A stretch of 50,435 bases of DNA from an uncultured Bacteroidia bacterium. Its GTDB lineage: Bacteria; Bacteroidota; Bacteroidia; J057; CALLMJ01. Shown here piece by piece: positions 39,245 to 48,604 of the stretch. The position numbers and the translations under genes were made by a program. How positions within the stretch are numbered: the stretch's first letter is position 1; every line of letters starts with the position of its first letter. The notes beneath the pieces are model-generated. The model saw nothing but the letters and a program-made list of their open reading frames with translations. It was not told the origin of the DNA and did no database searches. The stretch spans positions 1 through 50,435 of the forward strand of contig CALLNY010000024.1 of the NCBI GenBank assembly GCA_938005475.1. Direction: 5' to 3'.

Positions 39245-39281
39245 AAAAAGTGGCTTTATAAAAGGTAATTTATAAAGCCAC
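39245..39281 (-). terminator. Strong terminator after purS
   Basis: A 13-bp perfect stem, GTGGCTTTATAAA (39250-39262) with TTTATAAAGCCAC (39269-39281), and a 6-base loop. Five T residues follow on the minus strand (39245-39249). It begins 11 bases after the purS stop and ends the rimP-nusA-infB-purS operon. Confidence 0.88.
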
Positions 39282-39292
39282 GCAATTAATGG

Positions 39293-39547
39293 TTAATCCT
39301 CTTTTATTTCTATAAAGAAGTTTTCTACAATGGGATTAACTAATAATTGTTTAGCGATTTGCTCTGCTGTGGAATGAGCTTCCTGTTTGTGATTTGCTTG
39401 CAAAGTAATTTCTATTCTTTTGCCAATTCTAGAATTTATTACCTTATCAAATCCTAGTTTGTGTAACGCTTGAAGCGTAGTTTTGCCAGCAGGGTCTAGC
39501 AAGACTTCATGGGGCATAATATGAATAACAACTATGTAAGTTTTCAT
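39293..39547 (-). CDS. purS: Phosphoribosylformylglycinamidine synthase subunit PurS
   Basis: An 84-residue small protein with the PurS pattern: [19 protein letters not shown], then [21 protein letters not shown] and the late [15 protein letters not shown]. PurS joins PurQ and PurL to form the FGAM synthase complex of purine synthesis. Its ATG overlaps the infB stop as ATGA, so it is translated with infB. No purL or purQ is in the window. Its presence implies the genome uses the split purS/Q/L system rather than the single large PurL. Confidence 0.88.
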
Positions 39548-42438
39548 GAATTATTTAATTTACGTTTTATTTCAATTTGTTCATAAGATTCGATGATATC
39601 ACCCACTTGAATATCGTTATAGCTTTGTATGGTTAAACCACAATCCATAGGAGCAAGTACTTCTTTAACGTCTTCTTTAAAACGTTTTAATGAGTCTAAT
39701 TTACCGGTATGGATAACAATACCGTCACGAATAACACGAATGGGTAGGTTTTTGAGGATTTTTCCTTCTGTAACTTGGCAACCAGCAACTAAACCTACTT
39801 TACTAATTTTAAAAATTTGTTTTATTTCAGCAGTACCTATAATTTTTTCTTCTATGGTTGGGGCAAGCATTCCTTCTATGGCATCTTTTACTTCATTGAT
39901 AGCATCGTAAATGATACTATATAAACGAATATCAATTTGCTCTTGTTCTGCTAATTTTCTTGCTGAGGCGGATGGTCTTACTTGAAAACCTACGATGATA
40001 GCATCAGATGAGGAAGCAAGTAACACATCACTTTCTGAAATTTGACCTACAGCTTTATGGATAATACGTACTGCTACTTCCTCGTTAGAAAGTTTTAAAA
40101 GTGAATCGGATAAAGCTTCAACAGAACCGTCTACGTCTCCTTTGACGATTAAGTTGAGTTCTTTAAAATTACCGACCGCTCTTCTTCTAGCAATTTCATC
40201 TAAGGTAATATGTTTTTGGGTACGAATAGATTGCTCACGTATGAGTTGTTGTCTTTTATTAGCAATTTCCCTGGCTTCTTTTTCATTATCAAGCACAATA
40301 AATTTATCACCTGCTTGTGGGGTTCCATTAAACCCCAGAATTTGTACGGGCGTGGAAGGTCCAGCTTTTTTAATGGGTTTAAGCCTTTCATCAAACATAG
40401 CTCTTACTTTTCCGTAATGTGTATTTGCTAAAATGATATCTCCAATTTTAAGGGTACCATCTTGAACCAAAACCGTAGAAACAACTCCCCTTCCTTTATC
40501 TAAACGAGCTTCAATGACTGTACCTTTTGCTTTTTTATTAGGATTAGCTTTAAGTTCAAGCATTTCTGCTTCTATAAGTATTTTTTCGAGGAGTAGTTCT
40601 ATGTTAATACCGTTTTTTGCGGAGATTTCTTGACATTGGTAGGTTCCCCCCCAGTCTTCAACTAGTAAGTTCATTTCAGCGAGTTGTTGTCGTATTTTGG
40701 TGGGGTCAGCGCCAGGTTTATCAATTTTATTAATAGCAAAAATCATAGGAACATTAGCCGCTTGGGCGTGGTTGATGGCTTCAATAGTTTGAGGCATGAC
40801 TTGGTCATCTGCGGCAATGACGATAATTGCGATATCCGTAACTTGAGCCCCCCTTGCACGCATAGCAGTAAACGCTTCATGACCAGGAGTATCTAGGAAT
40901 GTTATTTTTTTTCCGTTATCCAGCGTAACTTCGTAAGCACCAATATGCTGAGTAATTCCTCCCGCTTCGCCCGCTATCACATTGGATTTACGAATATAAT
41001 CAAGCAAGGAAGTTTTTCCGTGGTCTACGTGTCCCATCACCGTGACAATAGGAGCTCTTTCCACTAAATCCTCCTCCCTATCTTGTTCCTCTTCAATATC
41101 AATTTTATCTTCTACAGAAACAAATTCTACTTTATAACCAAATTCTTCAGCAATTAAAGAGATAACGTCCGCATCAATCCTTTGATTGATAGAAACAAAA
41201 AGTCCTAATTCCATACACTTAGCAATAACCTGATTGACAGGAATATTCATTAAACTCGCTAATTCATTAGCAGTTAAAAACTCTGTAACTTCCAATACAT
41301 TAGCTCTTTCCAGCATTTCTTGTTGCTGAATCTCTAATTTTTGAGCTTGCTTCTCTTTTTTATCTTTTCTTATTTTTTGTCTAACTTTTTTAATGTTCTG
41401 ATTCATGCCCATCATGGCTTTTTTTACCTGGGCATCTACTTTCTGGGTATCAGGTGTTTCTCTGATTTTAAAATTTTTGTTTTTTTCTTTGTTAGTTATA
41501 GGAGATTGGATGGGTGAAGTTAAATTGTTGGCTTTCTCCGATGCTGATTTACGATTTCTTTTTCTTTTTCTTTTTCGTTCGGTTGTTTTATTTTCTGATT
41601 TTAAAGAGGTTTCGGTAGTAGTTTTAGTTTGTAGGCTTTCCTGGCTTGGCTCTTCAGTTTTGATAACCTTTTTCTCTGATGATGGTAATTTCGTTTTATC
41701 TAATATAGATTTCTTTTTGTTTTGATTTTTTTTGTCATTTGAGACTTCTTTGGGCTTATTCGCTTCTAAATCTATTTTCCCTAAAATAACAGGACCCGTT
41801 AATTTAGGGGTTTTATCTTTAGCCCTGATTACCGTATCATCTTGAGATTTTTTAATCTCATCTTGTGATATCTCTTTCTTTAAAATCGTAGCTTCTTCAA
41901 TATTTTCTTCAACATCAAAAGTTTTAGGACTTTTTTCAAATACTAAAAGCTCTTCTTCTTCATTTATTATAGGCTCAACATTGTTTTTTTCTATTTCTAA
42001 GGAAGGTTCAGGAGTGGTAACCTGAGTGAGTTTTGATTCCTCCGTTGTACTTACCTTGTTATCAAATAAAGATGGCTGAGTTTCTTTTTTATTTTTTTTA
42101 CTTTTTTTATCAGGTAAATCTATCTTACCAAGTATTTTAAGAGTAGGTTTCTCAATTTCTGTTTTTAAAGTTTCTTGTTCTTTTAATGTTTTTTGAATTC
42201 TTTCCTTTTGTTCTTTATGTTGTTCTTTGAGCGTATCCGCTTTTTCCTTAACTACTTTATCTTTACCAAACTTTTTTAAGAGAATGCGGTACTGTTCCTC
42301 ATTAATCTTAAAATTAGGATTGTCTTGAATAGATTTATAACCTTGAAGAACCAAATATTCTACTAAGGTATTAGTGCCAACATTAAGTTCTTTTGCTACT
42401 TTACTTAATCTATAAAAAGGTTCTTTTTCGTCTGCCAT
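39544..42438 (-). CDS. infB: Translation initiation factor IF-2
   Basis: A 964-residue GTPase that places fMet-tRNA on the 30S subunit. An IF2_N domain lies at ~7-55, then a long Lys/Glu-rich low-complexity linker to ~370, a second IF2_N-like domain at ~385-440, and the GTPase core: [33 protein letters not shown], followed by domains II-IV to the end. The long charged linker is normal for Bacteroidota IF-2. It starts 12 bases after nusA and overlaps purS. Confidence 0.97.
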
Positions 42439-42450
42439 AATTCAACATGA

Positions 42451-43746
42451 TTAAAGTTCATCATCTTCATAAAACTCATCATTATCTTCTTCAAATTCAG
42501 CTTCTAAAATATCTAAGACTTGGCGAATTAAATTTTTGTCTAATTCGGTACGTCTATGTATTTCTTCCACTGACAAATTTAATAAACTTTTTGCGGTATC
42601 AAAGCCTACTTCTTTGAACGTATCAATAATCCATTCTTCAATTTCATCTTTGAATTCGTCTAAATCTACGTCTTCTTCATTAGGGTCGGGTTCTCTGAAC
42701 ACGTCAATGATATAGCCAGTTAATTTACTAGCAAGTTTGATGTTAATACCACCTTTTCCAATAGCCAGAGAGATTTGGTCTGGTTTAAAATATACACTAA
42801 TTTGTTTATTTTCTTCATCAATGATGGAATAAGAAGCTTTTGCAGGAGTTAATGCACGTTCTACAAAAATTTGAGGGTTACTAGAGTAATTGATGACATC
42901 AATGTTCTCGTTTCGTAGTTCTTTTACAATACCATGAATTCTAGAGCCCTTTATACCTACGCATGAGCCTACGGGGTCTATTCTGTCATCATAACTTTCA
43001 ACGGCTACTTTAGCTCTTTCTCCTGGCTCCCTTACAATACTTTTTATAGTGATTAAGCCATCTAAAATCTCGGGAACTTCTTGTTCCATCAAACGCTCTA
43101 AAAATATAGGTGAAGTTCTAGATATGACAATATAGGGAGAAGAGTTTTTCATTTTTACTTCTAAAATTAAAGCTTTAATGGTATCCCCTTTGTTAAATTT
43201 ATCTTTAGGGATTTGATGTTCTTTGGGTAAAATTAACTCATTTCCATTATGAATTACCAAGATTTCATTTCGCCATACTTGGTAGACTTCGCCTATTATA
43301 ATTTGGTTTAATTGAGCTTTGTAAGTTTCAAAAACATTAGATTTTTCTAAATCTTTTATTCTTTGTGCTAGTAGTTGTTTGGCAGATAATACTAATCTTC
43401 TACCGAATTCCTTTATATCGACGGCTTCCGATACTTCATCTCCGGGCGCAAAATCTTCGTCAATTTTTAGGGCTTCACTCAACGGAATTTGCGTACTTTC
43501 ATCTTCTACCTCTCCATCTTCTACCACTATACGGTCCCTGAATATTTGAATATCTCCTTTATTTACGTTTACAATAACGTTATAATTGCTATCAGAATGA
43601 TATTTCTTTCTTATCATGTTCCGAAATACATCCTCCATCACGCTGGTCAGTGTAGCATTGTCTATATTTTTATCTTTTAAAAACTCTAATAAGACATCAA
43701 TCATGATGCTTTTATCGTCTTTTACTATTGCTTTTTTCTTTGCCAT
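42451..43746 (-). CDS. nusA: Transcription termination/antitermination factor NusA
   Basis: A 431-residue RNA polymerase-associated factor controlling pausing, termination and antitermination. The N-terminal domain (1-~125) binds polymerase; the S1 domain follows (VYQVWRNEILVIH); KH domains appear at VGIKGSRIHGIVKELRNENI and AIGKGGINIKLASKLTG. The C-terminus is acidic (EAEFEEDNDEFYEDDEL). NusA is known in other bacteria to control its own operon through leader terminators, relevant to the hairpin upstream of rimP. It begins 2 bases after rimP. Confidence 0.96.
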   Translation of the reverse strand: MAKKKAIVKDDKSIMIDVLLEFLKDKNIDNATLTSVMEDVFRNMIRKKYHSDSNYNVIVNVNKGDIQIFRDRIVVEDGEVEDESTQIPLSEALKIDEDFAPGDEVSEAVDIKEFGRRLVLSAKQLLAQRIKDLEKSNVFETYKAQLNQIIIGEVYQVWRNEILVIHNGNELILPKEHQIPKDKFNKGDTIKALILEVKMKNSSPYIVISRTSPIFLERLMEQEVPEILDGLITIKSIVREPGERAKVAVESYDDRIDPVGSCVGIKGSRIHGIVKELRNENIDVINYSSNPQIFVERALTPAKASYSIIDEENKQISVYFKPDQISLAIGKGGINIKLASKLTGYIIDVFREPDPNEEDVDLDEFKDEIEEWIIDTFKEVGFDTAKSLLNLSVEEIHRRTELDKNLIRQVLDILEAEFEEDNDEFYEDDEL

Positions 43747-43748
43747 AA

Positions 43749-44243
43749 TTACTTACTTTTTTCTTTTTTCTTACCAACTTGTACTACCGCTTCTTTTATA
43801 TTTGTTAAATCTATTGTATGCTGTTGCAATTCTTTCTTTTTAGTTTTTGAATTTTTAGTCTCAGATTCTATGATAATTTGATAACCATCAAAACGGATTA
43901 ATTTACCTTCTAATTTTTCTCCGTTGTTTAATGTTACTTTTAGGTCTCTACCTATATTTTTTGCATACTGGCGGGGTAAAATCAATGGATTATTCAAACC
44001 GGGAGAGCTTACTTCTAGTTCATAAGAAAAATCAACTATATCATATTCATCAAAATAAGCACCAATTTTTCTACTCAATAAACTACATTCTTGGATAGTA
44101 ATTCCCGCATCAGTATCAACAAAAATTTGGATACTGCTTCTTGTAGAAATATTTACTTTAATACTTACTAGGAAAGCTTCTGGTAGAGCTTCCTGTATAA
44201 TTTTTTCTACGATAGGTCGAATACTTTCTACGGTTACAGTCAT
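43749..44243 (-). CDS. rimP: Ribosome maturation factor RimP
   Basis: A 164-residue protein needed for 30S subunit maturation. The N-terminal domain has SIQIFVDTDAGITIQECSLLS and YELEVSSPGLNNPL (the ExSSPGL motif is the family signature); the C-terminal SH3-like domain contains GEKLEGKLIRFDGYQI. The ATG at 44243 gives the expected N-terminus (MTVTVESIRPIVEKII); a longer frame to 44291 reads through a terminator hairpin and is rejected. It is the first gene of rimP-nusA-infB-purS. Confidence 0.94.
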   Translation of the reverse strand: MTVTVESIRPIVEKIIQEALPEAFLVSIKVNISTRSSIQIFVDTDAGITIQECSLLSRKIGAYFDEYDIVDFSYELEVSSPGLNNPLILPRQYAKNIGRDLKVTLNNGEKLEGKLIRFDGYQIIIESETKNSKTKKKELQQHTIDLTNIKEAVVQVGKKKEKSK

Positions 44244-44248
44244 GTTGC

Positions 44249-44276
44249 AAAAAACAAAAGAGGGAACCCCCTCTTT
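44249..44276 (-). terminator. Intrinsic terminator in the rimP leader (candidate attenuator)
   Basis: On the minus strand, AAAGAGGG (44276-44269) and CCCTCTTT (44264-44257) form an 8-bp stem with four G-C pairs and a 4-base loop, followed by TGTTTTTT (44256-44249). Only 5 bases separate the T-run from the rimP ATG, so any promoter for rimP must lie upstream of it. It is 58 bases after the acyltransferase stop. Confidence 0.8.
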
Positions 44277-44288
44277 CCTTATTAAACG

Positions 44289-44296
44289 CAAAATTA
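44289..44296 (-). promoter_or_regulatory. -7 box upstream of the rimP leader terminator
   Basis: TAATTTTG on the minus strand, ending 12 bases before the hairpin arm. Transcription from here would start about 8 bases before the stem. No -33 TTG is seen at the normal distance. Confidence 0.5.
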
Positions 44297-44334: not shown

Positions 44335-45198
44335 TTAGTTCATTTTTTTATGTTTCCATCGTTTGTGGCTCCAAAGCCAATTTGCGGGTTGGTTTTGAAT
44401 ACTTTTTTCTAGGAAAAGAATAAAGGCTTGTACTAATTCATTATTTTTCAATTGAGAAGCATCGTGAGTAAAAATTTGATAGGGAGTATGATATTTACCT
44501 CTTGATTTTTTTAATACTTCTATAAAGATGACAGCCATTTTTCTTCGTTGAGCAATTTTTTCGTAAGCGTTAATAAAAGCGGTCTCCTGATGAAAAAAGG
44601 TTGTCCATATGCAATTTTGTGAACTGGCAGGGCTTTGGTCTCCAATAATAAGGGTCAGAGTGGGTTTATTCGTAGGTGGTTGGAGTAAAGTTCTTACCTG
44701 ATTTGCTGGGACCATTTCTGCACCATATTTTCCCCTCAAATTTACAAGCCAAGCATCCAAATTTTTATTTTTAATTGGCATATATACTCCTTGCACGTGG
44801 AATTGGGTATTTCGGCTTAGTATCCACAGTCCCCATTCCCAATTAAATTGGTGCCCAAGCACCATTAAAACGGACTTTCCTTCTTTATATAAGCGATTAA
44901 GCTCTGATAAGTCAATTTCATAGTTTTTTTGTATGTAATCGTAGCTATTAGAAGCCATTAACAACATCTCCAAAAAAAAATCCGTCAGATTCTGATAAAA
45001 TTGTGATTGTATTTTTTGAATTTCCTTATTTGAAAGTTGTGGGAAAGCATTTTTCAAATTTTCTTGTATAACCTTTTTTCTATAACGTACTACGTTAGAC
45101 ATAAACCATGCAATAAAATTGGATAAATTATAAAAAAAAGGTTTAGGAATTATGAATAAAAATTTGCTTAAAAGATTAAGCAAAAATGTCCATTGCAT
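44335..45198 (-). CDS. LpxL/HtrB-like lysophospholipid acyltransferase
   Basis: A 287-residue inner-membrane acyltransferase. One N-terminal anchor helix is followed by RKKVIQENLKNAFPQLS, the catalytic HX4E motif in LGHQFNWEWG, and the end WLWSHKRWKHKK that typifies LpxL/LpxM-type Kdo2-lipid A acyltransferases. It probably adds a late acyl chain to lipid A, though ornithine- or other lipid targets are possible. It begins 3 bases after a lipoprotein gene. Its stop is followed by the terminator that lies in the rimP leader. Confidence 0.88.
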   Translation of the reverse strand: MQWTFLLNLLSKFLFIIPKPFFYNLSNFIAWFMSNVVRYRKKVIQENLKNAFPQLSNKEIQKIQSQFYQNLTDFFLEMLLMASNSYDYIQKNYEIDLSELNRLYKEGKSVLMVLGHQFNWEWGLWILSRNTQFHVQGVYMPIKNKNLDAWLVNLRGKYGAEMVPANQVRTLLQPPTNKPTLTLIIGDQSPASSQNCIWTTFFHQETAFINAYEKIAQRRKMAVIFIEVLKKSRGKYHTPYQIFTHDASQLKNNELVQAFILFLEKSIQNQPANWLWSHKRWKHKKMN

Positions 45199-48305: not shown

Positions 48306-48377
48306 GCCCCGTTCGTCTAGAGGTTAGGACCCAAGATTTTCATTCTTGTAACAGGGGTTCGATTCCCCTACGGGGTA
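48306..48377 (+). tRNA. tRNA-Glu (UUC), copy 1
   Basis: A 72-base cloverleaf: acceptor GCCCCGT/ACGGGGT (G1-U72 wobble), D stem GTCT/GGAC, anticodon stem CAAGA/TCTTG with loop TTTTCAT giving anticodon TTC, T arm AGGGG/CCCCT with loop TTCGATT, discriminator A. CCA is not encoded. Confidence 0.96.
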
Positions 48378-48398
48378 CATAATAATAAAAAGTCTTAC

Positions 48399-48470
48399 GC
48401 CCCGTTCGTCTAGAGGTTAGGACCCAAGATTTTCATTCTTGTAACAGGGGTTCGATTCCCCTACGGGGTA
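48399..48470 (+). tRNA. tRNA-Glu (UUC), copy 2
   Basis: Identical over all 72 bases to the copy 21 bases upstream, with different flanks. CCA is not encoded. It is probably co-transcribed with the first. No terminator is obvious in 48471-48604. Confidence 0.96.
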
Positions 48471-48604
48471 CTCTAAATTGAACTACACTTCATCTCTCTA
48501 AATTTATAGTTTACAGAAAATTTTGAGAGCCTTCAAGAAATTTCCTTTAAATCAAATTGCATTTTGAAAAAGTTTATAATTTTACGGCTCATTTAATTGG
48601 AATA

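Follow-up and report, generated by a model that had tools for sequence, protein, structure and literature searches.

A promoter-proximal terminator before rimP-nusA-infB in Bacteroidota, a probable attenuator linked to NusA

Why does a complete intrinsic terminator stand directly before rimP, at the head of the rimP-nusA-infB operon, in an uncultured Bacteroidia bacterium? The window analyzed here (the whole stretch of 50,435 nucleotides of contig CALLNY010000024.1) carries on its minus strand rimP (43749–44243; Pfam RimP_N and DUF150_C), nusA (42451–43746; NusA_N and KH_5), whose product is the proposed sensor and regulator, infB encoding IF2 (39544–42438; IF-2, IF2_N, and GTP_EFTU), and purS (39293–39547; PurS), the last gene of the operon in the genus of the window. 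A 13-bp terminator hairpin detected by a terminator scan (39250–39281, minus strand) closes the operon. The start of purS overlaps the end of infB by four bases, and the infB-purS order is also present in another member of the genus (L274) and in a different genus of the same order (L277) and is absent in four other relatives checked. Farther along the window, the two genes of a tandem tRNA-Glu (TTC) pair (48306–48378 and 48399–48471) are identical at 73 of 73 bases. The terminator before rimP was originally predicted to be an attenuator of this operon. On comparative grounds, we regard a transcription attenuator of rimP-nusA-infB(-purS) as the probable answer and feedback by NusA as its likeliest mechanism.

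The element lies on the minus strand and begins with a −7 promoter box, TAATTTTG (44289–44296), corresponding to the Bacteroidota sigma-A consensus TAnnTTTG. A spacer, CGTTTAATAAGG, separates the box from a terminator stem-loop, AAAGAGGG-GGTT-CCCTCTTT (44257–44276), which is identified by its sequence, the terminator scan, its predicted fold, and class-wide conservation and covariation. The stem comprises 8 bp, including four G-C pairs, with a G-rich 5′ arm (44276–44269), a GGTT loop (44268–44265), and a C-rich 3′ arm (44264–44257). It is followed by a T-run, TGTTTTTT (44249–44256), and the sequence GCAAC then separates the T-run from the rimP ATG (44243), which is located 5 nt from the end of the T-run and 13 nt from the stem. 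Direct reading of the sequence confirmed the coordinates and description of box, stem, T-run, and ATG in the original prediction exactly, and in a mechanical terminator scan the 44276–44249 site ranked first among the short terminators directed toward rimP. Because the Bacteroidota sigma box is described as occupying positions −12 to −5 (PMC9723704), transcription is predicted to start at approximately 44284–44282 on the minus strand. This box geometry gives a predicted leader of approximately 40 nt, matching the earlier estimate of ~40 bases, and a predicted terminated RNA of approximately 35 nt with its 3′ end at the T-run. Approximately 7 nt of leader would precede the stem in the window, and the median in the class is 20 nt. 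The short leader (44284–44249) folds with −13.8 kcal/mol (z −2.5; 2 of 200 shuffles equally good). The fold of a longer stretch is less striking (z −1.5), and the statistical weight therefore lies in conservation and not in the single fold. The rimP reading frame is open upstream as far as a TTG at 44291, so that an automatic gene caller could choose a start codon within the terminator; a start at the 44243 ATG agrees with the relatives.

Homologous loci of relatives were fetched with RimP as the query. The first 30 loci spanned relatives from within the genus up to different families of the class. In every one of them a TAnnTT[TC]G box preceded a hairpin with a T-run by 12–31 nt, and in one (L020) the hairpin was weak. 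The class sample consisted of 90 rimP loci from approximately 70 families. A strict terminator was defined as a stem of at least 6 bp with four G-C pairs, a loop of 3–8 nt, and five T in eight bases, no more than 120 nt from rimP, and the box was defined as TAnnTT[TC]G no more than 42 nt upstream of the stem. The strict terminator was found in 82 of the 90 loci and was accompanied by the box in 79. Dinucleotide shuffles of the same leaders gave the terminator in 16 of 2700 cases (0.6%) and the terminator with the box in one (0.04%), and the corresponding counts at the starts of other genes in these loci were 5 and 0 of 283. Judged by both controls, the combination of terminator and box before rimP is not a matter of chance. 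Several of the eight misses result from the choice of a wrong start codon, because the hairpin is seen in another reading or by eye. The proposed attenuator thus passed the comparative test suggested in the original prediction, its stem, T-run, and promoter-proximal position being conserved in the class.

The distance between box and stem is tight (7–33 nt, median 25, in 79 loci), while the distance between stem and ATG is variable (5–99 nt, median 15, in the class loci). A GGG is present in the 5′ arm in 79 of 79 class loci. When stems were chosen without the T criterion, the following eight bases contained 5.6 T on average, compared with a background of 2.7. When 24 hairpins were aligned without gaps, each of the eight stem pairs showed changes on both sides and 97.9% of the cells were paired, which exceeds every shuffle and every slid register; since the aligned hairpins were pre-selected for pairing, the 97.9% figure supports the structure and is no proof by itself. 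The competing antiterminator considered in the original prediction did not emerge among the relatives: an upstream partner of the 5′ arm was present in 0 of 79 class loci, and no downstream partner of the stem was found above chance in these loci. Such an absence fits a terminator modulated by a protein or by the polymerase. A riboswitch, a T-box, and a leader-peptide attenuator were each considered and rejected, as an Rfam search of the window returned no match, the stem had no partner, and the leader is too short: with only about 7 nt before the stem, there can be no leader peptide.

Outside the class, 20 families of the same phylum were sampled with a scan slightly looser than the strict class definition. 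A terminator before rimP was found in 15 of the 20 by the scan (3.5% of shuffles) and in approximately 18 by eye. The stems in these families differ (GTGGG..CCCAC, GCCCG..CGGGC, and CGCCCG..CGGGCG), and in L140, L149, L150, and others their polarity is reversed (GCCCG..CGGGC). As judged from these leaders, not every rimP leader carries a G-rich 5′ arm, and it is evidently the function that is kept across the phylum, while the stems change in sequence and even in arm polarity. The conservation foreseen for relatives of the window bacterium therefore reaches the phylum level, with other stem sequences. The reversed polarity in other classes weakens the idea of a specific sequence read by NusA.

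The specificity of the motif was examined in genome-wide searches. The exact pattern AGGGGAC-N3-7-GTCCCCT-NTT, scanned in 60 whole genomes (~225 Mb), occurred at approximately 20 sites; 16 of them were at rimP, and the remainder were symmetrical 3′ terminators without the box. The pattern TTTG-N14-36-AGGGGAC-N3-7-GTCCCCT-NTTT, scanned in a genome collection of approximately 85,000 species, gave at least 83 matches in at least 80 loci. Among the matches listed, the next gene was rimP in 73 of 83; of the other ten listed, three were cut by contig ends at a rimP-like start and resemble the rimP sites, and three were opposite-strand readings of the palindromic stem. Judged by record title, the loci among the matches listed belong nearly all to Bacteroidota, with one Pseudomonas and one deltaproteobacterial bin as exceptions. 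A stem-only covariance model was less specific and also matched ordinary 3′ terminators after stop codons, and the mark of the element is therefore the combination of terminator, promoter, and operon placement and not a private fold. The idea that further genes share this leader and form a regulon was also rejected. The covariance model (R1) picked up numerous additional hairpins, but its best 20 non-rimP sites were ordinary 3′ terminators or lacked the box, which was found nearby in only one, and these sites gave no sign of a regulon sharing the leader.

Which product of the operon does the leader serve? Genomes without rimP provide a natural experiment on this question. Eighteen genomes of the class had no RimP match, and in 17 of them (G045 left out) no member of the RimP_N family was found over the cut-off. 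Three were left out of the count, namely, G045 (a reduced genome of 0.5 Mb), G279 (nusA at a contig end), and G043 (no nusA). In 14 of the 15 remaining genomes, representing five families, a hairpin with a T-run lies directly before nusA (shuffles, 1.1%). The genomes that keep nusA but have no detectable rimP (L095–L110; families f22, f31, f52, f68, and f75) are complete and make up entire groups within the class. In the cases located by the strict scan, the hairpin lies 32–155 nt from the nusA start, with no space for rimP between them. A TAnnTTTG box was recognized upstream of the hairpin in 14 of 14 by reading the sequence, and the stems are weaker in two of the 14 (G065 and G101). Because the element stays before nusA without rimP, RimP is not the sensor in these lineages. 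This retention argues for NusA rather than RimP as the product that is controlled and does the sensing; an input from IF2 or from a general growth signal would fit it as well. A more specific proposal, to which we give about even credence, is that the Bacteroidota element is tied to nusA and not to rimP: it would be a minimal, sensor-free attenuator of approximately 35 nt that responds solely to the NusA state of a polymerase only just clear of the promoter, and it would stay with nusA when rimP is lost.

We propose a mechanism for the element based on its anatomy. RNA polymerase would start approximately 5 nt past the TAATTTTG box, synthesize approximately 7 nt, and then enter the stem. Transcription would either terminate at TGTTTTTT, releasing the RNA of approximately 35 nt, or read through into rimP-nusA-infB(-purS). 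Abundant NusA would stimulate the hairpin terminator and lower the expression of its own operon, and a shortage of NusA would increase read-through. Since there is neither an alternative hairpin nor space for a leader peptide, the choice between the two would have to be made at the elongation complex. NusA, itself encoded in the operon, is a stimulator of intrinsic termination. The original prediction noted that NusA controls its own operon in other bacteria, and Bacillus subtilis supplies the precedent: an intrinsic terminator in the 5′ leader, stimulated by NusA, controls the nusA operon (Mondal 2016, reviewed in PMC12288461). We infer the link to NusA in Bacteroidota from this precedent, together with the support from the rimP-less genomes.

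The main rival is a promoter-proximal terminator with fixed read-through, which would lower the operon by a constant factor without NusA feedback. Such a constant brake would account for the absence of an antiterminator and of a sensory domain, and anatomy alone cannot show regulation. However, phylum-wide conservation and covariation would be costly when a weaker promoter would do, and NusA feedback is established at the same place in B. subtilis (PMC12288461); we consider the constant brake unlikely, though it is the alternative that survives best. A translational role, in which the stem, ending 13 nt upstream of the ATG, interferes with ribosome loading, possibly under the control of RimP, IF2, or NusA binding, has a much smaller probability. 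The median distance from stem to start codon (15 nt) does fall inside the ribosome footprint, but the conserved T-run is needless for a translational operator, it is the distance to the promoter box that is tight while that to the ATG ranges over 5–99 nt, and some lineages that have retained the element lack RimP. Least credible, and very improbable, is that the hairpin only ends the transcript of the lipid A type acyltransferase gene upstream of rimP (44335–45198, likewise on the minus strand; Pfam), with some read-through into rimP: the stop codon of this gene lies 57 nt before the stem with no second strong terminator in between, but the −7 box is just upstream of the stem in 79 of 90 loci, and 35 of the 37 class loci with a divergent upstream gene have the hairpin, compared with 37 of the 43 with a neighbor on the same strand, so that it is not merely the terminator of the upstream gene. 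The original prediction had allowed for this role; it fails as a general function, and in the window the hairpin may do both.

If the attenuator is controlled by NusA, as we consider probable, a control circuit of a core transcription factor would be extended from Firmicutes and Gammaproteobacteria to Bacteroidota, whose sigma factor is unusual, whose leaders lack Shine-Dalgarno sequences, and for which Rfam does not have the element. The rimP-less genomes point to NusA and exclude RimP there as the product served. In addition, the very short leader is a good test case for an elongation factor acting on a polymerase just past promoter escape.

The closest known system is the rimP-leader of Firmicutes and Gammaproteobacteria, for which NusA was proposed as the sensor (Naville and Gautheret 2010, PMC2965389). 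It is described as a short terminator hairpin with a U-run, 4–130 nt before rimP-nusA-infB, with no antiterminator; the main text makes no mention of Bacteroid* or Flavobacter*. In the window, the 5′ UTR of rimP-nusA-infB likewise contains an intrinsic terminator, with a G-rich 5′ arm, a C-rich 3′ arm (GGG..CCC), and a U stretch. This terminator has the same simple form, without a larger conserved element or antiterminator (0 of 79), and a distance to the gene within the same range (in the window, 5 nt from the T-run and 13 nt from the stem; 5–99 nt in the class). The rimP-leader consensus is GGGc..gCCC, whereas the stem here is GGGGAC..GTCCCC and the exact closing c-g pair is absent in the window, and the Bacteroidota element, unlike the rimP-leader as described, precedes nusA where rimP is missing. 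Rfam RF01770 (rimP), a 102-position model, likewise describes a terminator-containing rimP leader; neither the window nor any of the 21 searched genomes gave a match over the gathering cut-off, and its matches in relatives were scattered and below the cut-off.

In the same phylum and at the same gene, Flavobacterium psychrophilum has a transcribed, structured 5′ element of rimP, which is kept in other Flavobacteriaceae and has no Rfam match (PMC9723704). It is one of 64 such elements; the main text gives no mechanism, and conservation is stated for one family. Our literature search found no published test of the rimP leader in Bacteroidota, and the main text of the Bacteroides thetaiotaomicron map (PMC7366714) does not mention nusA. 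In Streptococcus agalactiae, RNA-seq revealed two transcripts, one short and one long, that share a start before the rimP-nusA operon; the short transcript stops 31 nt downstream of it (PMC4448216). The B. subtilis leader is approximately 180 nt long (PMC2965389), compared with approximately 40 nt predicted here, and NusA-dependent attenuation is experimental in B. subtilis (PMC12288461), whereas here we infer it from sequence. From its anatomy and placement, the element is a Bacteroidota version of the rimP-leader. The kind of switch and the Flavobacteriaceae element were already known; what is new is that the element spans the phylum and that genomes lacking rimP retain it at nusA.
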